NCBI RefSeq assembly: GCF_029784155.1
Contig: NC_073691.1
Coordinates: forward strand, 135,900,394 to 135,964,393
DNA from: Uranotaenia lowii
Lineage: Eukaryota > Arthropoda > Insecta > Diptera > Culicidae
Length of the DNA stretch: 64,000 nucleotides
Direction of reading: 5' to 3'
A program made the position numbers and the translations under genes. The notes under the pieces are model-generated. The model was given only the letters and a program-made list of their open reading frames with translations, was not told where the DNA came from and did not search any database. How positions within the stretch are numbered: position 1 is the stretch's first letter; each line of letters begins with the position of its first letter. Of this stretch, positions 14,106 through 50,931 are shown one piece after another.

Positions 14106-14433
14106 TAAGGTTGCCAGATTGCCCGGTTTTATCCGGGCTTGCCCGGATATTTAATACTAAATTTGAGAACAGTCAGGCCCGGCCCGGTTGCCCTGATTTC
14201 ATTGAAATATGCCCGGATTTTGCCCGGATTTATTCACTTTATTTGGCAAATTAAACAAAAAAAAACAACAAACACCTCCAAAACGAATTTTTTTGAGTAA
14301 ATTTTATAAAAATAATCATGAAAGGTTTTTGGAAGCCTAAAATAGGGTTCAAAATCTATCGATGAATTTTGATGAAAACAAATTTTTTCTTCATTTTTTT
14401 TATTGATTTTTGATGAGGAATTTCTGAGTTTTT

Positions 14434-14727
14434 TGTAGGGAATATAGTAAGAAAATAAGAATAAATATCTCTGAATGAACGATAAATGAACAGCTAGAAG
14501 ATTGGCAACACTTGTTCATGAGAGCACGCTCCGATTCGTGTACTCGGAAATTTTGGTTTTTCGGGAGCGTTCGTTTCAATAAGAGAGCCTGTGTAGAGTT
14601 TTCGTAGAAAACTAGTTGACAGATTCTACATGAGTGTAGAGAGCTTGGAATTCAGTTTACAGACTAATTTTGTGAGCGACGGATCGCGTCAGCCTCGCGC
14701 TAATAAAATATTCGGTCGGTTTCGACA
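14434..14727 (+). repeat. 5' LTR (294 bp)
   Basis: TG...CA ends and identical to 19616-19909. AATAAA at 14702-14707 could serve as the polyadenylation signal. GAATAAATATC near 14460 is the only TATA-like string; I cannot place the R/U5 borders. Confidence 0.95.
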
Positions 14728-14728
14728 A

Positions 14729-14741
14729 TGGCGCAGTCGGT
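14729..14741 (+). other. Primer binding site, tRNA-Ser type
   Basis: TGGCGCAGTCGGT starts one base after the 5' LTR. It complements the 3' end of a fly serine tRNA (…ACCGACTGCGCCA), the primer class known from 17.6/297-type Gypsy elements. Confidence 0.85.
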
Positions 14742-15335
14742 TTGTTTGAACGATTAGTGTTTTTTTTAGTTTTGTGCTTGGAACATCTTGGAGAGCGGGA
14801 TCGGGGTCTTTAGTTGGAAGTGTAACCGGTATTGAGGATGATGCGAATGGACGGTGAGTAGAATGGTGGAAATTGTGAAGAATTGATTTGAAGGATAGAA
14901 GATAAAAAGAAAGGAACGAGAGTAAAATGGCGGGTTTCGGTGTACTGCTATTTCGAGGTTTTTGATTGTTATTAACAGAGCGGATTTTTGTACAATACAA
15001 TTATTTTCGTGCATGAAAAATTTGAATGTGCATTAATGAGTGATGCGGCAGATTTTATTTGTCGGTTGTTGTTCCCCGTTCGTAGATGTGAAATTTTTAC
15101 AGCTGTAGAGGTGTTTGTGTTAGACGGTAAGATCAATAATTTCGGTACTTATTGTCAGTGGCTGGTTTTATTTCAAAATTTTCTATAACCTTGCAAGGAT
15201 TGACAGCTAGAGTTAATTCCGAATCTGATGAGGGTCAACTGGTGGTAGAGAGAAGCTGGAAGTAGAGATCGACGACTTTCTGAGGATTTTTGAGTTCGAC
15301 AATGGATGAACATTTGCTTGAGAGCAGCGCTAACA

Positions 15336-15700
15336 TGAAGTGAGAGGTACAAACCCCTGAGAGGGGCAGTGCCATGAAATGGGAGGTACAAACCCCTGAG
15401 AGGGGCAGTACCATTAAATGGAAGGTACAAACCCCTGAGAGGGGCAGTGCCATGAAATGGGAGGTACAAACCCCTGAGAGGGGCAGTACCATTAAATGGA
15501 AAGTACAAACCCCTGAGAGGGGCAGTGCCATGAAATGGAAGGTACAAACCCCTGAGAGGGGCAGTACCATTAAATGGAAAGTACAAACCCCTGAGAGGGG
15601 CAGTGCCATGAAATGGGAGGTACAAACCCCTGAGAGGGGCAGTACCATTAAATGGAAGGTGCAAACCCCTGAGAGGGGCAGTGCCATGAAATGGGAGGAA
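15336..15700 (+). repeat. Nine tandem 39-bp repeats with a hairpin in each unit
   Basis: The core ACAAACCCCTGAGAGGGGCA occurs nine times at exactly 39-bp spacing (near 15351, 15390, 15429 and so on to 15663). Two unit types alternate, one ending GCCATG and one ending ACCATT, giving a 78-bp higher-order period. CCCCT-GAG-AGGGG in each unit can form a 5-bp stem with a 3-base loop. Because 39 is a multiple of three, all frames stay open. This creates spurious ORFs on both strands (135, 163 and 169 codons); they encode only the iterated unit. Confidence 0.95.
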
Positions 15701-15727
15701 TATAGTAAGAAAATAAGAATAAATATC
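15697..15727 (+). repeat. 31-bp fragment of the LTR start embedded in the interior
   Basis: Directly after the 39-bp array, 15697-15727 is identical to LTR positions 14439-14469. A fragment of the LTR beginning therefore sits 1.26 kb into the interior, probably left by template switching during reverse transcription. Confidence 0.85.
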
Positions 15728-18700
15728 GGAAGTAGAATGAGCATTGGTAGTAAGTCAGCTAAAATAGATATACATGATTGAAAAATAATAATAAGAAGAA
15801 GAAATGGATAATGTCTAGTGGAAAATGAGGTATAAACAAAACAAAAGTAAGAAGGAAAAATAAAGATAAAGAAAGAAATAAAAGATAAAAAAAATCAATA
15901 GAATATGAGAATTCAAATATTTTAAAGAAAAGAAGTTGAAAATCAAGAATAAAAAAAAGATACAACAGAAGAACGGCTGAATAAAAAAATGAAAATAACC
16001 TAATTCTTGTAAAAGACTAAAAAGAAAACTAATAAAGTTTGAAAAAAAATTAAGTCATGGCAAATGAAGGATAGGAAAGATAAAGTTTAATGACAAACAT
16101 TGCAAAATGTGTTGGAAAAGGGAGTATTAAAAAAAAAAATTAAAGAAAAATAGAGCAGTATCATAAAAAAAAAGTCTCCTAGGTGAAAAGGAAGGAAAGG
16201 CAAATTTTGACTGAGGAAGATTCATAAAAGAAGAGATTTAAAAAAAAGAAGAATTAAAGCAGAAAGAGTTTAAAAAAAAACTAGATTCTGTAAAATGTAG
16301 AATGAACAATGGAGTTTTGAAAAAAAGCAGTAGGGAAAATATAAAAAGAAAAATGAGGAGTGAATATTAGAGAAAAGATCGGAGGATAACAAGATTAGAA
16401 AAAAGGAACTAAAAAAAAAGAAAAATTGAGAATAGAGCTAGCATTGAGAATAAAAACGATAGAGGGAGTTGAAAATCATGAATGAAAAATGTACAGTAGA
16501 AAATGATGAATGAAAAACGAAAGTATTGATTATGGGAGATTATGAGTGGAAGATAGAAAATGTGCATAAAAAAGGGTAACAGAAAAAGATAATAACAGAT
16601 AAAGCGATAATAGATAGGTAGAGAATGGAGAGGAAGATTTTCAAAAAAGGATAATTTGATGATTGGAAAATTTTGTAGAGAATGGAGACTGAACAAAAGA
16701 GGAGATTTGTTAGAAGAAAAAATTGAGGACAGGAAACTAAGAAAGATGAAGAAAGAAAGATAAAAAATAGGAAATACCTAGAAAGAGAATTGAAAGATTT
16801 CAAAGAACAAAAGTGGAAGATAATGTTTTTTCTGTTACTTCTTTATTTGAAACGGCTCATACCTTGAGGCTTTATGGAAAGAGACTAAGGTTAATATAAC
16901 AACATAAAAGGAGTTGAAAATCAAGAATGAAAAATGTACAACAGAGGATAAAGAACGGAATTATTGATAAAAAAGAGATGCATTAAGAGTGGAAAATGGA
17001 AAATAGAAAAGCGGGAATGAAGAAAAAACAGCTAATTGATAAAAGATAAATGGATTAAAGATTGATGTGATATGGAATGGAAGGAGAAACAAAGAATTAA
17101 ATTAAATAGTCTACAGAGAAAAAAGAATGAACAAAAGGAATAAAAGTAAATTGGGTGTGAAAAAATAAATAAAAGTATTAAATAATGCAAAAGGCCAATT
17201 TAATTTTTAAAAAGGGCAAAACCTCTGAGTGAAAGGGGCTAAGGAACATTGAAAACTGCAGAATGCAAAAATAAATGAATAAACGATACAGGGAGTTGAA
17301 ATTCAAGAATGAAAAATGTGCAGTAGAAAAATGGGCATAAAATAAACGAGATTAATTATTATGGGAGATTATGAGTGGAAGATGGAATGCATCGTGGAAG
17401 AGATACCGAAAAAAAATGAAAACGGATCAAGGGATAAGGGACCCGTGATAAATGGAGATGAAGATTTCCAGAAAGAATAATTTTAGGAATGAAAAAAGTA
17501 TCTTAAAAAGAGGGTTGAAAAACGAGATAAAGAGAAATTTTAGTTGAAAAAAAAGAAAATAAAATGACAAATAAGAGATAAAAAAAAACATTAATAAGAA
17601 ATTGTTCATAATGGAAGTTTCACAAAAGTGGAGAGTTAAAAAAGAAGAATGAAACTACAAAGAGTAAAAAAAACTTGTTAAATGGAGAGCAAAATAAAAT
17701 TGTTTTTATAAGAGTATGGAAAATTGCGAAAAAATGAATAGTGAAAACTAAGAGGTGAATATTTAGGACAAAAAATTTAGAAAAGGAAGGAAATATAAAT
17801 AAATATAAAATAGATTGAAAATGCAAAGATCAAAAGTGAAGAATAATGTATAAAAACACAGAGAAAACAGTAATACAGAATGAAAAATAGTGTACAGAAA
17901 AAAAGAAAAAAATTAAAAGGGAGGAACAAAAATAAAGTAAAAGAAAACATAGTAAGGATCGGTAAATAAAGGATGTAGAATTTAATATAGTATGATGAAA
18001 TACATGAATCAAAATTAATGGAAAAATTGAGATAGAGTAAAAATGACAAGCAGGATTATAAAAAAAAAAAACGGGAATACGAACCCCTGAGCAAAAAAAA
18101 AATTTGGAAAATGAGAGTTTTACAAAAGTGGTGGTTTTAAAAAGGGAGAATTACAGCAGAAGAATAAAAAAAAAATGTAGATTTTGTAAATGGTGAGGGA
18201 AAATTGGAAATTTGAAAAGCAAGTATTGAAAATTAAGGAAGAAAAATAATGAATGAAACGTTGGAAGGAAAATAAGGGTAAAAAAATTATATAAAGGAAG
18301 AAATACAGCATGCAATATAAGAAACAGAATGAGCATCAAAGCAGAGGAATGACAAATAAAGTATATATGCAAAAACAAAAAATTAAAAAATACAGAGCAT
18401 TAAAAATTATTAATGAGAAAAGGTACAATAGAAAATTAGGCATTAAAAACGAAATTATTGATAACAAAAGATAATGCAGATGCAGATTTTCAAAAAGGAA
18501 AAGGAAACAGAATATAGAAAAAGGGAGTGATCAGAGTTAGAATGCACATAAAAATGGAGGAAAGAGAATAAGGGATAGATAAAAGGAGTTTCACTAAAGA
18601 AGAGATTAAAAAAGGATGAATTAATTTAGAAAGATAAAAATAAATTGATTCTGTTTAATATAGAAAAGGAAGTTTAAATAGTGACTATAGAAAACTGGGA

Positions 18701-19600
18701 AAAAAATGAATAAATTGAAAGGTAGGAAAAAGGAGGAAAAAAAATGGTGTAAAAATTGAAAGATCTAAAGTAAAGAATAAGGTATGGATAATGGAGAAAA
18801 GGACAAAACATCAAAAAAATACGATACCGAAAGGAAATCGAGTAGAAAAAAATGTACCATAAAGTAGGACGACTGGAAGTATCTATAAAAGGAGATTCAT
18901 TATGGAAAAAGAAATATAGAAAATATTTAAACAAAGATAGAAAAAATGCATCATTAACACAGAAAAAGTAGAGAAATGGAAAATGAACATATAATGACTT
19001 AAAAAAAAATTATCATGTTATTAGAGAATGAAAATGCGGCATACAGAATGCAAAATAATGTACAAAAAAAAAGGGATTGAACACAGGGAAATCGGAAAAT
19101 AGTGTTCATGCAAAACGGGTGTTATAGAAGCAGCTTAGAATAAAATAAACAGTAATAACAAGGGAAAACGGAAGTGCAAGTACCAATTAAATAAAATTGT
19201 AAAAAAAAAGAAGACGAGAAGCCGGCATTGTATATAAAGGGAGAAATGTGAATCACCTATTAAGGTAGTAGGATCGTGGAATAAGTGTAAACAAGGAATA
19301 GAAATTCTCAAATAATGATGAAGTATTTTAAACGTTCAACGAACACCTGTGACAATCTGTCACCTAGAATGAGGAGGAGTAGGATCAGATAAAAAAAGAC
19401 CTGAAAAAGAGCAATGTGATGAGAAAATGAAAAAGTACCTTTTGATGCCTGGAAGAAACAGTGGATTTTGATATTGAAAGTGATAACACAGAACCAAGCG
19501 ACGTAAAAACGAAAACAACAAGAAAAAAACACATAAGAAAGGAAAAATTACAACAGAAATTCAGAGAGTAGAAATCTTTTTCAAACTAGTTCAGGAGTAT
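15728..19600 (+). repeat. Purine-rich, repeat-built, non-coding interior of the LTR element
   Basis: The plus strand is dominated by A and G, with few C, over nearly 3.9 kb. Several degenerate repeat phrases recur. GGGAGTTGAAAATCATGAAT-type units begin near 15925, 16465, 16910 and 17290. AAAAGAAGAGATTTAAAAA-type units begin near 16223, 17620, 18120 and 18592. At 16845-16890 there is TTATTTGAAACGGCTCATAC, resembling the antisense 3' end of a non-LTR element also seen at 59060. ORFs on the minus strand here are low-complexity F/L/I-rich shadows. No protein domain is seen. Confidence 0.85.
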
Positions 19601-19615
19601 AGAGGCGGAGGCAAA
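19601..19615 (+). other. Polypurine tract of the LTR element
   Basis: AGAGGCGGAGGCAAA, nearly all purine, abuts the 3' LTR at 19616. It is in the position required for plus-strand priming. Confidence 0.75.
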
Positions 19616-19909
19616 TGTAGGGAATATAGTAAGAAAATAAGAATAAATATCTCTGAATGAACGATAAATGAACAGCTAGAAGATTGGCAACACTTGTTCA
19701 TGAGAGCACGCTCCGATTCGTGTACTCGGAAATTTTGGTTTTTCGGGAGCGTTCGTTTCAATAAGAGAGCCTGTGTAGAGTTTTCGTAGAAAACTAGTTG
19801 ACAGATTCTACATGAGTGTAGAGAGCTTGGAATTCAGTTTACAGACTAATTTTGTGAGCGACGGATCGCGTCAGCCTCGCGCTAATAAAATATTCGGTCG
19901 GTTTCGACA
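19616..19909 (+). repeat. 3' LTR (294 bp)
   Basis: Identical by eye to the 5' LTR and followed at once by the TTTTT target duplication. Identity implies little time since insertion. Confidence 0.95.
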
Positions 19910-20000
19910 TTTTTGACAAAATTTACCCGGATATTGCCCGGATTTATGGTCGTCAATTGAAAATCGAATACCCGGATTTTGCTAGGTTTTTATATAATAA

Positions 20001-29481: not shown

Positions 29482-29562
29482 GGTTTATTAAAAATATCTT
29501 TCTTAAAAAATCATCCAGAAATTCGTGTTCTCTCCGCGGACAAAGGGAATAGGACAGTAATC

Positions 29563-31098
29563 ATGGAAACCAAAGATTACCACAGAAAAATGTCAATTCT
29601 CGTCAATGATAAGAGCACATATCGACCCACAAATCGTGATCCAACAAGCGGCTTCCAGAAAAAGAACAACAACTTCGTAAAAAGACTTCTAGATTTGAAG
29701 TTGATCGACAAATTTACAGCAAAACGCCTGACGGTATACAACGCTACCTGTCCCAAAATATACGGACAGACAAAACCCCACAAAGCTGAACTTCCACTAA
29801 GACCAGTGGTTCCCAACGTAACTGCTCCGACTTACCACTTATCCAAATATATATGCGAAATTCTACAATCATCCATCAAAAGTCCATACAGTTGCAAAAA
29901 TTCGTTCGAATTTTGCGAGGAAGTGAATGGTCTAATTATACCACCTGGTTACATAATGATATCTCTGGACGTTGTATCCCTATTTACCAACGTCCCCAGA
30001 AAATTAGTAACCAACAACATCATACAACACTGGTCTGAGATTAACACCCAAATAAATCTGGACCTCTTCCTCGAGATAACTGAATTCTTAATGGATGCCG
30101 CATATTTTCAATTTGATGGAAAATACTACGTACAGGAGTTTGGAACAGCCATGGGCAGTCCAATCAGCCCGATATTCTCGGAATTGGTCCTTGACACGAT
30201 CATCTCCAGAGCAATAAGAAATCTCCCATTTCAGATTCCATTCATTCGCAAATATGTGGACGACCTATTCTTAGTTGTCCCGGAAGAACTTTGCGATCAA
30301 GTTCTCAACATCTTCAATGAACAAGAAGAACGCCTTCAGTTCACGATGGAGAAAGAGCAAGAAGGCCGCTTACCCTATTTAGATATGGTCATAATTCGCG
30401 ATTCCAGCCAACACCTAAAAACAGAGTGGTACATCAAACCGATTGCCTCTGGACGTATGCTGAATTGGCACTCGTGCCACCAGCTGAAACACAAGCTAAA
30501 TGTAGCCAACAATTTTATAAATAGGATCGCGATCTTATCCAGAAATGACGAGAATCAAAATATTTATAAACTCATCCACGAACATTTGAGGCAGAACGAT
30601 TTTCCCAAACATTTGATCAACAGACTGATCAACAAAAATCCATCCATCCAACGACGCAAGCACACTCATAACCAAATATCACCAACCATCCAGCCAACCA
30701 TCAATCCAATCCACTCGAATGCCGACCATCCTTCCTGCAACACAACAATAAACCATCCAACACCGCAACTACACCATCGCTCAAACCCGGAAAATTCATC
30801 AGCAAGCAACTCCAATCCAGCAGTCATCAATCCAGCCGATCCTCGAACACCAAATGACAGCATAACTTCGACTACAGCAGCAAAGCATGACATCACTTAT
30901 CGCTCGGTAACCTACGTACCAAAGCTTACCGAACGACTGATGCGGTGTCTTGCGACGGACTATCCCAACAAAAAAATTGCCAGCCGAAGGAACAAAACAG
31001 TAGGAGACCTGTTCAGCAACAACGTATTGGTGAGGTATCCAACATCATATACAAGATCCCTTGTGAAGAACCCTGCACCTCTGTCTATATTGGACTAA
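29563..31098 (+). CDS. Penelope-like reverse transcriptase
   Basis: 511 codons from the first ATG; the frame itself is open from 29482, so this ATG is probably not the true start. Motifs in order: ADKGN just upstream, KPHKAELPLRPVV (residues 71-83), SLDVVSLFTNVP (134-145, carrying the first catalytic Asp), GTAMGSPISP (194-203), YVDD (231-234, catalytic), LPYLDM (270-275). A thumb-like region follows to about 350, then a hydrophilic N/P/T/H-rich linker (about 355-440) and a conserved-looking block (VTYVPKLTERLMRCL). The polymerase core shows no broken catalytic residue. Past about residue 485 the frame leaves the endonuclease because of a shift near 31020-31040 and stops after an unrelated tail (SILD). 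Confidence 0.88.
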   Translation: METKDYHRKMSILVNDKSTYRPTNRDPTSGFQKKNNNFVKRLLDLKLIDKFTAKRLTVYNATCPKIYGQTKPHKAELPLRPVVPNVTAPTYHLSKYICEILQSSIKSPYSCKNSFEFCEEVNGLIIPPGYIMISLDVVSLFTNVPRKLVTNNIIQHWSEINTQINLDLFLEITEFLMDAAYFQFDGKYYVQEFGTAMGSPISPIFSELVLDTIISRAIRNLPFQIPFIRKYVDDLFLVVPEELCDQVLNIFNEQEERLQFTMEKEQEGRLPYLDMVIIRDSSQHLKTEWYIKPIASGRMLNWHSCHQLKHKLNVANNFINRIAILSRNDENQNIYKLIHEHLRQNDFPKHLINRLINKNPSIQRRKHTHNQISPTIQPTINPIHSNADHPSCNTTINHPTPQLHHRSNPENSSASNSNPAVINPADPRTPNDSITSTTAAKHDITYRSVTYVPKLTERLMRCLATDYPNKKIASRRNKTVGDLFSNNVLVRYPTSYTRSLVKNPAPLSILD

Positions 31099-42119: not shown

Positions 42120-43500
42120 CAATCCGGTGTTCAATAACGTAAATATAACAAAAAAAAAACAGTAAACAGGTAATTTGGACGACCCCTTTGACCGACTTCT
42201 TTTACAAAATTTTATACCTGAAATCGAATTCCCAACTTTTAAAACCCACGTGCGTGAATTTTCATTGTAACCCAATGTACAATAAGGTCAGTATCGCAAA
42301 AAAGTGAACGGGTGAAATGTGCGACCTCTTTCTCCAATCCCTTACACCAAATTTGATACCTGAAATCGATTATCCATCCCTGAAAACTTTCGAGTGCCAA
42401 TTTTAATCTTAATCCAAAGTACATTTACGTCAATATCGTAAAAACAGTGAACAGGTAATATGGACGACCCCTTTTTCCAACCCCTGCCTCAAAATTGGAT
42501 GCTTGGAATCAATTGCTCATCCCTTGAAACGCCCGTGTCCCAATTTTCATCCCAATCCGATGAATAATAACGTCAATATCGCGAAAAAAGTGAACAGTTA
42601 ATATGGACGACCCCTTTGGCCGACCCGTGACCTGGATTTGGAAAATTGGAATTATTTATTTGTCCCTAATAACTCCTATGTGCAAATTTCCATCACAATC
42701 CGATGTATAATAACGTGAAAATCACAAAAATATTGAAACGTAATATGGACGACCCCTTTTGCCGGCCTCTTATACAAAATTCGTTACCAAAAATCGATTG
42801 CCCGTCCATCAAAACTCCCGTGTACAATTTTGCATCTTAATTCGATGCATAATAACGTCAATATTGCAAAAAGAGCGAATGGTTTATATGGACGACCCCT
42901 TTGGCTGGCCCCTGAATCCGCATTTTATACCTGGAATCGATTGCTCGTCACTCGAAATTCCTATGTGCAAATTTTCATCTCAATCCGATTTATAATAACG
43001 CCAATATCGCAAAAATATTAAACAGTTGATATAGACGACCCCTTTTGCCGACCTCTGACCAAAAATTGAATACCTGAAACCAATTGGTCATCTCTCAAAA
43101 CCCTCATGTGCAAGTTTTCGTCTCAATCCGACGAAAAATAACGTCAATATCGGGAAAACAATATTTATCTTCTATGGACGACCCCTTTGGCCGATCCCTG
43201 ATCCCTAATTTAATACCTGGAATTGATTGCTCATCACTCAAAACACTCATGTGGAAATTTTCATTTCAATCCAATGTATAATAAAGCCAATATCGAAAAA
43301 AAACATTAAACAGTTAATATGGAACCCCTTTGGCTGACCTCGGATCCAAAATTCAATACACGCAATCAATTTCTCATCTCTCAAAACCTTCGTGTGCAAA
43401 TTTTCAACACAATCCGACGAAAACTAACGTCAATATTGCGAAAACAATATTTGCCTTGTATGGACGACCCCCTTCAGAAGGGGTCATCCGAAAATCTGAA
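42120..43500. repeat. Tandem array of about 143-bp units
   Basis: At least eight consecutive units are recognisable by ATATGGACGACCCCTTT, GCCGACCCCTGAC, ATACCTGGAATCGATTG and ATAATAACGTCAATATCGC. Spacing is 142-144 bp and divergence between units is moderate. It is the body of the outer Helitron. Short ORFs in it are period artefacts. Confidence 0.9.
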
Positions 43501-50332: not shown

Positions 50333-50931
50333 TTGACTCAGAGGAAAACATTGTTGTGGGCCGACGAATCCAAATTTGAGCTATTCAACCGGAAGAAGCG
50401 GGATCATATGTGGCGCAAGTCGGGTGAGGAGCTCCAAGACCGCCATATCCAAGGAACAGTCAAGCACGGAGGAAGTAACGCGATGGTGTGGGGGTGCTTT
50501 TCTTGGGGTGGGGTGGTAAAAATTTGGTCAAAATTGATGGAACCATGACAGCTGAGTCATATTGCAATGTCCAGCCGGAAAACCTCGAGGTATCCCTCAT
50601 CAAGACGGGCCTCGGAGAGCGCTTCGTTTTACAGCAGAATAACGATCCGAAGCATACGGCCAATCTGATGAGGTCATTTTCCCGTTCCTGCCACACCAAA
50701 CCCCTTGAGTGGCCTTCACAAAGTCCTGATCTGAACCCCATCGAAAATCTGTGGGCCATCCTCGATGCTCTGATTGATAAGACTGGTGTGACAAATAAAA
50801 GTACTTATTTTGATGCCCTGGAGCATGCGTGGGAGGAACTCGACCAACAACACTTGCACAACCTTGTTGAAAATGTGCCGAAGCGCTTGCAGGAGGTGTT
50901 GAAGGCTGAAGGAGGCCATACCCATTATTAA
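50333..50931 (+). pseudogene. Tc1 transposase C-terminal half, plus copy
   Basis: The first frame (50333-50548) gives TLLWADESKFELFNRKKRDH (first catalytic Asp in WADES), then HGGSNAMVWGCFSWGG, and leaves frame near 50515. The second frame (to 50931) gives NLVKIDGTMTAESYCN, FVLQQNNDPKHTA (second Asp), SPDLNPIENLW (catalytic Glu) and the end KAEGGHTHY. Only 32 residues separate the second Asp and the Glu, against 34 in the usual DD34E, so two residues seem deleted. No N-terminal DNA-binding domain precedes it. Confidence 0.88.

Follow-up and report, generated by a model that had tools for sequence, protein, structure and literature searches.

A gene-less LTR retrotransposon family of Uranotaenia lowii with a predicted RNA hairpin multiplied in its leader

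Packaging signals of retroviral leaders lie between the primer site and gag, and hairpins are found there. Among long terminal repeat (LTR) elements, large retrotransposon derivatives (LARDs) keep their LTRs, primer site, and polypurine tract around a large noncoding interior. In 2012, Marsano et al. (PMC3286476), who also name LARDs, described 38 gene-less LTR families (cqUNK) with tandem repeats and without master copies in Culex quinquefasciatus. In the portion of that paper available to us, the role of the repeats is left open, the gypsy insulator is cited as a precedent, and copies of different cqUNK families may share a repeat, with no common unit named. Here, we describe an LTR element in a 64,000-nucleotide stretch of the mosquito Uranotaenia lowii (contig NC_073691.1, positions 135,900,394 to 135,964,393; "the window"). 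The element (14434 to 19909; 5,476 bp) belongs to a large family of gene-less LTR retrotransposons; it is non-autonomous and inserted recently, and its leader carries a repeat that covariation supports as a sense-strand RNA stem-loop with nearly fixed loops.

The element resembles the cqUNK families, as far as these are described in the available text of PMC3286476, in its LTR pair, primer site, mostly 5-bp target duplication, lack of coding sequence, and tandem repeats between the LTRs, and in that a search revealed no master copy; several cqUNK families have tRNA-Ser sites, and among these cqUNK_20 has a repeat with a 39-bp period (18.2 copies). The comparison is one of descriptions, not of sequences, and the same text mentions neither RNA structure nor purine bias. 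Like LARDs, the element combines an LTR pair and target duplication with a retained primer site and polypurine tract and a 4.9-kb noncoding internal domain, in line with the LARD-like class given in a first-pass annotation of the window; it differs in its hairpin array and in an interior whose sequence turns over while its composition mostly stays. Elements of the Ty3/Gypsy Mag lineage likewise have tRNA-Ser or tRNA-Leu primer sites, and three Culex members have tandem repeats in the 5' untranslated region (PMC3286476, same portion), but they are coding, and the present analysis found nothing linking their sequences to the window element. Retroviral leader signals and the gypsy insulator share the placement of hairpins or repeats between primer site and gag; retroviral leaders usually have a few distinct hairpins and the insulator consists of DNA-level sites, whereas the window family has many copies of one hairpin. 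Helenus and Ajax elements, from what is accessible of PMC12859917, are of a different kind, derived from small-RNA genes. The class itself is therefore not new, gene-less tandem-repeat LTR elements being known from Culex (PMC3286476), but searches of open-licence papers, like the part of PMC3286476 consulted, brought up no gene-less LTR elements described as having arrays of covarying hairpins.

A recently inserted element without a gene

The LTRs of the window element, which start with TG and end with CA, had been called identical by eye and agree at every position. Its target duplication is intact, as the first-pass annotation stated, although TTTTT in a T-rich flank is weak evidence alone; it is backed by exact 5-bp duplications at sibling elements (B, GTTTC; E, ATCGG; F, GAGGG; G, CTGAG; I, CTCGC; J, CCGGT), with one mismatch in element H. 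Solo LTRs have an exact 5-bp duplication in four of five cases checked, and the fifth (L016) has one mismatch. Recent movement, also claimed earlier, is borne out by sibling B (L009), an insertion elsewhere in the genome with its own 5-bp duplication; its 294-bp LTRs are the same, and it matches the window element (A) at 99.6 to 99.8% in two large shared blocks and at 98.8% in a third, short block. Elements E (L012) and F (L013) are 99.7% identical over 5,391 aligned bases, with an identical LTR pair in each. LTR-pair identity is 98.7% in G, 99.7% in H and J, and 99.1% over 332 aligned bp in K, whose 3' LTR is cut by the locus end; the pair of element I, which also hosts a nested element, differs at 1 of 296 positions. 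Thus, all nine elements read through (A, B, and E to K) have LTR pairs at least 98.7% identical.

The scanned genome comprised 1,077,602,043 bases, most of them in three contigs of 216, 437, and 370 Mb. A pattern joining the LTR end to the primer site, with up to three mismatches, matched 117 places, against 0 for the reversed pattern as a control. About 100 of the 117 matches were listed; because one tandem row accounts for eight of these, the elements number fewer than 117. This row (C2:50949284-50949996; 98-bp spacing) appears to be a satellite that arose from the LTR-primer junction. A search with the window LTR, with scoring limited to 40 of 141 first-look candidates, gave at least 42 matches. 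The primer site TGGCGCAGTCGGT, putatively of tRNA-Ser type, is retained as previously noted. The polypurine tract is represented by a conserved motif, TATAGAGGCGGAGGCAAA, at the expected place, though in the window element it includes C and T residues; the motif was seen in 10 of 10 elements with an available 3' end (11 loci), two degenerate positions and no other mismatches being permitted.

The earlier statement that the element has no protein gene held. No gene-sized sense frame lies outside the array in any of the nine elements, and none was found there for a reverse transcriptase or integrase of the Ty3/Gypsy Mag lineage. The longest stop-to-stop frames of the purine-rich window interior have 59 (sense) and 122 (antisense) codons. 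Frames through the array reach 145 sense and 193 and 219 antisense codons, and their Pfam matches all fall under the curated cut-offs; four frames of 81 to 97 codons (L055, L067, L052, and L048) have no Pfam match. The proposed search for an autonomous partner by LTR or leader recovered the family but no coding partner: queries with the LTR of the window element, that of L020, and that of L029 together with its leader, each scoring 40 of 108 to 149 first-look candidates, gave many single LTRs and also LTR pairs, of which those retrieved are gene-less. Three other candidates were rejected, namely, an extra 6 kb in L018 (a nested element bearing terminal repeats of its own), L034 (decayed, with a frame that looks transposase-like by eye), and an extra 3 kb in L044 (no match to L029; apparently nested).

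The leader repeat as a predicted RNA hairpin

The first-pass annotation did not remark on the array at 15346 to 15685, the most conserved part compared in the genome-wide family. Each unit, GGTACAAACCCCTGAGAGGGGCAGTACC with an 11-nt spacer, is predicted to fold into a stem-loop with a 3/2 internal loop (-14 kcal/mol; z, -3.6), which takes the 28-nt sense-strand form N5-AAA-N4-UGAGN-N4-CA-N5'; nine copies were observed where none was expected by chance. In folding predictions, longer array pieces also pair across units, which may compete with single hairpins. Among subfamilies A, G/H, and J, majority units agree at 27 to 28 of 28 positions (86 to 93% for all units against all), while spacers are 54 to 62% identical (shuffled, 49 to 55%), leaders 45 to 64%, and LTRs 67 to 79%. 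Within subfamilies, leader identity ranges from 81% (G-H) to 99.7% (A-B) and LTR identity from 91 to 100%. The majority unit of element K differs at four positions, with GTGC/GCAC replacing GTAC/GTAC. Units are tandem in the window element and dispersed in other elements; in L049 and L050, hairpins 33 to 54 bp apart have stems such as GACAC/GTGTC, AATAC/GTATT, AGTAC/GTACT, and CTCC/GGAG. A 23-nt core had no exact match in viral or general genome contig collections (insect collections were not among them), and no Rfam family matched 14430 to 15720 at an E value of up to 1.

Covariation was assessed in several sets of units. One alignment took a single copy of identical units per subfamily; a later set omitted three of its rows, L021:6892-6919 and L030:5607-5634 (both out of register) and L032:999-1026 (duplicate sequence), and took 20 of 41 L041 units, and a set from more diverse loci took 3 of 7 L014 units and one each from the window, L029, and L030. 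Double changes numbered 13 against 4.7 in shuffles for 90 units (80 distinct; seven subfamilies), 30 against 12.6 for 118 units (105 distinct), and 41 against 14.1 for 32 units from the more diverse loci (29 distinct), a value reached by none of 500 shuffles. In the 32-unit set, 89.7% of cells are paired, against 39 to 57% with the partner slid; pair 4-25 is AU in 18 and GC in 10 units, and pair 10-20 is CG in 21 and UA in 8. The number of pairs with a double change, which together with the pair-type count is the shuffle measure least inflated by relatedness, is 7 against 4.8 in this set (8 of 500 shuffles reach 7).

An independent set was drawn from 20 further loci outside the model, with units picked by sequence alone; 14 of the loci yielded 127 units (71 distinct). 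It has 52 double changes against 21.2, the maximum in 1,000 shuffles being 36, and pair 3-26 is T-A in 38 and G-C in 23 units. The T-A form of pair 10-20 comes from four loci in this set (L053, L054, L056, and L065) and is also seen in L042, L049, and L050; the G-C form of pair 4-25 is also seen in L030, L042, L049, and L050. Unpaired T13, G14, A15, G16, C22, and A23 are present in 92 to 100% of the 71 units, A6 in 93%, and A8 in 90%, and loop position 17 is A or T. Since single C-to-T and G-to-A stem changes are about equally common among close relatives, wobble pairs are not favored there. The number of independent covariation events is modest.

Sense-strand hairpins were found behind 38 of 52 sampled junctions between LTR end and primer site. 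The sample was nonrandom, with 16 junctions from loci chosen by LTR or interior similarity (15 with hairpins) and then 8, 20, and 8 (4, 14, and 5 with hairpins). In the batch of 20, all 126 model matches lie on the junction strand; in L062, a looser sequence match to the unit sits on the opposite strand. An exact 27-nt core occurs at 157 genome places (control, 0). Those listed fall into 18 clusters, of which 13 have a listed junction upstream on their own strand, another is the inverted array in L033, and the remaining four are without a listed junction. The nearest core is 409 to 1,186 bp behind the junction in 11 of the 13 clusters and 4.4 and 6.6 kb behind it in the other two, which belong to elements with nested insertions. 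Elsewhere, L014:9045-9292 (minus strand) holds seven diverged hairpins (AGCAC/GTGCT and AGTAC/GTACT) in genome-like composition, and the L033 array (C1:34117000-34118900) spans 1.9 kb, with about 47 units by a tandem-repeat finder and 39 model matches.

Interior turnover and features of the window

The interior had been described as almost entirely A/G, which overstates a purine content of 0.725 (A, 0.518; G, 0.208; T, 0.205; C, 0.070 at 15699 to 19615). The degenerate repeats of which it was said to be built are real but cover just 28% of the window copy's interior at an E value of 1e-6 (49% in sibling B). Interior sequence is shared within a subfamily (98.8 to 99.8% between A and B, in three blocks), and same-strand matches cover from 79% of interiors (A-B) down to 13% (A-J). 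Composition mostly outlives sequence between subfamilies: A, B, E, F, G, and J have A at 0.515 to 0.527, C at 0.065 to 0.081, G at 0.201 to 0.208, and T at 0.195 to 0.211, with H (A, 0.486) and I (A, 0.446) deviating somewhat. A uniform copying bias is argued against, because the T/G-rich leader is made by the same enzyme. Differences between E and F showed no trend of A-ward mutational pressure, although with 13 of 17 differences polarised by element A the data are few (A>G, 4; G>A, 4; A>T, 3; G>T, 2).

Reverse-transcription template switching leaves joins through short shared sequence. In the window element, a 31-nt copy of LTR positions 6 to 36 is joined through short shared ends (GG and TAAATATC); B has other sequence there, and no such internal copy is present in B, E, or F. 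From known retroelement biology, the copy may be read as a scar of template switching. In addition, 1.3 kb of interior present in the window copy is missing from B. On the minus strand, B has an antisense frame (L009:3992-4957) of 339 codons from stop to stop and 322 from the first start, rich in Phe, Leu, and Ser and longer than the largest of 30 shuffles (216); neither it nor two antisense frames of J have a Pfam match. We read the long antisense frames of B and J as a chance product of scarce sense-strand T and C.

Coordinates of the element's parts are given in Table 1. Within the interior, about 53 bp (16826 to 16878) match many genome places at 89 to 96% and are a fragment of another repeat. 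The window also contains a 538-codon frame (29482 to 31098) with a weak RVT_1 match below the cut-off and a Penelope-type look by eye, a frame (50479 to 50931) with a weak DDE_3 transposase match, likewise below the cut-off, and a tandem repeat of 143/286 bp extending over about 1.3 kb (42156 to 43471).

Table 1. Parts of the LTR element and its flanks, in window positions
Feature	Positions	Strand	Evidence
Left target-site duplication, TTTTT (5 bp)	14429-14433		Same letters on right flank
5' LTR, TGTAGG...TTTCGACA	14434-14727	+	294/294 identity with 3' LTR
Leader, 618 bp, T/G-rich	14728-15345	+	99.7% in sibling B; 45-64% across the three subfamilies compared (A; G/H; J)
Primer binding site, TGGCGCAGTCGGT	14729-14741	+	LTR-end and primer-site pattern at 117 genome places
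Nine predicted 28-nt RNA hairpins, 39-bp period	15346-15685	+	Covariance-model matches; covariation
31-nt duplicate of LTR positions 6-36, between array and interior	15697-15727	+	Read as a template-switch scar
Purine-rich interior without a gene, with degenerate direct repeats	15699-19615	+	Composition, frames, and repeat search
Purine-rich 3' motif, TATAGAGGCGGAGGCAAA, abutting the 3' LTR (polypurine-tract position)	19598-19615	+	Motif common to siblings
3' LTR	19616-19909	+	294/294 identity with 5' LTR
Right target-site duplication, TTTTT	19910-19914		Same letters on left flank

Possible mobilization and rival explanations

We lean toward regarding the element as a non-autonomous parasite of another LTR element, equipped with a multimerised RNA hairpin for which a packaging-type function is inferred. 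Its RNA would be made from the LTR, and the hairpins would recruit it into particles of a coding LTR element supplying Gag, reverse transcriptase, and integrase; a tRNA-Ser would prime, and the RNA would be copied and inserted. The array would then be a multimerised packaging signal, and the A-rich interior would serve as filler with little structure, lengthened and shortened as reverse transcriptase switches templates. With no gene to preserve, selection could still maintain a cis-acting RNA handle; that the hairpin sits behind the primer site and has been multiplied in an element lacking any gene suggests that it recruits borrowed machinery. The array looks like an RNA element because its stems vary yet mostly pair, its loops vary less, and it lies on the transcript strand. 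Mobilization in trans, proposed in the first-pass annotation, is thus upheld by inference, whereas the Gypsy-type partner named there did not emerge among the sampled junctions. More tentatively, the family may be a long-lived gene-less LTR lineage without a coding member, united by one covarying hairpin multiplied into arrays as a modular packaging handle; the parasite would outcompete the helper's own RNA, and all but the LTR ends, the primer site, and the 3' tract would be free to turn over.

Several observations weigh against a packaging hairpin in a helper-dependent element. No coding partner with this LTR end and primer site was found at the 52 junctions, most of which, outside the read-through elements, were read only 0.4 to 3.5 kb inward, so that a gene further in would escape. 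At 13 junctions, no hairpin lies in the stretch read (L046, L059, L070, and L072 are purine-rich there like the interior, and the other nine are mixed or genome-like), and in L033, the 14th exception, array and LTR junction lie on opposite strands. Pairs with a double change stay near shuffle level in the 90-unit (4 against 3.3; 220 of 500 shuffles) and 118-unit (6 against 5.3; 209 of 500) sets, as do pair types in the 90-, 118-, and 32-unit sets (256, 176, and 204 of 500). Double changes in the 71-unit set reflect few events, with G-C at pair 3-26 in L064, L068, and L071 only and G-C at pair 4-25 in L054 only, and covariation is weak among close relatives, in which the two single stem changes, C-to-T and G-to-A, are about equal; the case for it comes from the more distant subfamilies. 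Position 7 is A in 73% of units and G in 16 of 71, so that the internal loop is not quite fixed. The packaging role itself is suggested by position and by analogy to retroviral leaders, and a protein that would bind the hairpin is hypothetical.

The main rival to a packaging signal is nuclear export: the hairpins may serve to export or stabilise the RNA through a host protein that binds them, so that a long, intronless, gene-less transcript reaches the cytoplasm. A sense-strand, covarying, multimerised hairpin with nearly fixed internal and terminal loops would suit this role too; given that Rfam offers no match and that export by itself leaves the place right behind the primer site unexplained, we regard it as unlikely. 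That the repeats act as DNA, as an insulator or a promoter-proximal protein site comparable to the gypsy insulator of Drosophila, would agree with a tandem leader array of inverted half-sites and with the regulatory repeats that PMC3286476, in its available portion, proposes for Culex elements. Stem bases, however, change between elements yet mostly pair, unpaired bases change less, and the half-sites are separated by spacers of 3 and 2 (AAA/CA), which makes a DNA-level role improbable.

Chance is a still less probable source. A functionless palindromic satellite spread within elements would be homogenised as tandem arrays are, related units do inflate shuffle tests, and the pair and pair-type counts of the 118-unit set do not exceed shuffles; yet L049 and L050 have dispersed, non-tandem hairpins (spacing, 33 to 54 bp) with different stems, most of them paired, and the unit was kept while spacers and leaders diverged. 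Least probable of all is a repeat peptide, which was rejected as a reading of the array: periods of 39 and 36 bp are multiples of three and the frame is open for 145 codons in the window and 191 in B, but unit spacings of 29, 35, 37, 38, 40, 47, 59, and 71 also occur, a stop codon stands just before the window frame, no Pfam match reaches the cut-off, and third codon positions show no extra variation.

The gene-less Culex elements reported in 2012 posed the puzzle of what moves such elements and what their repeats do; here, in a recently inserting family, the repeat has the look of a structure conserved at the RNA level. The hairpin offers a concrete bait, since the protein that binds it should be the helper's Gag or an exploited host factor. 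If a packaging role is true, the family would be one in which a multimerised RNA packaging tag has arisen naturally.

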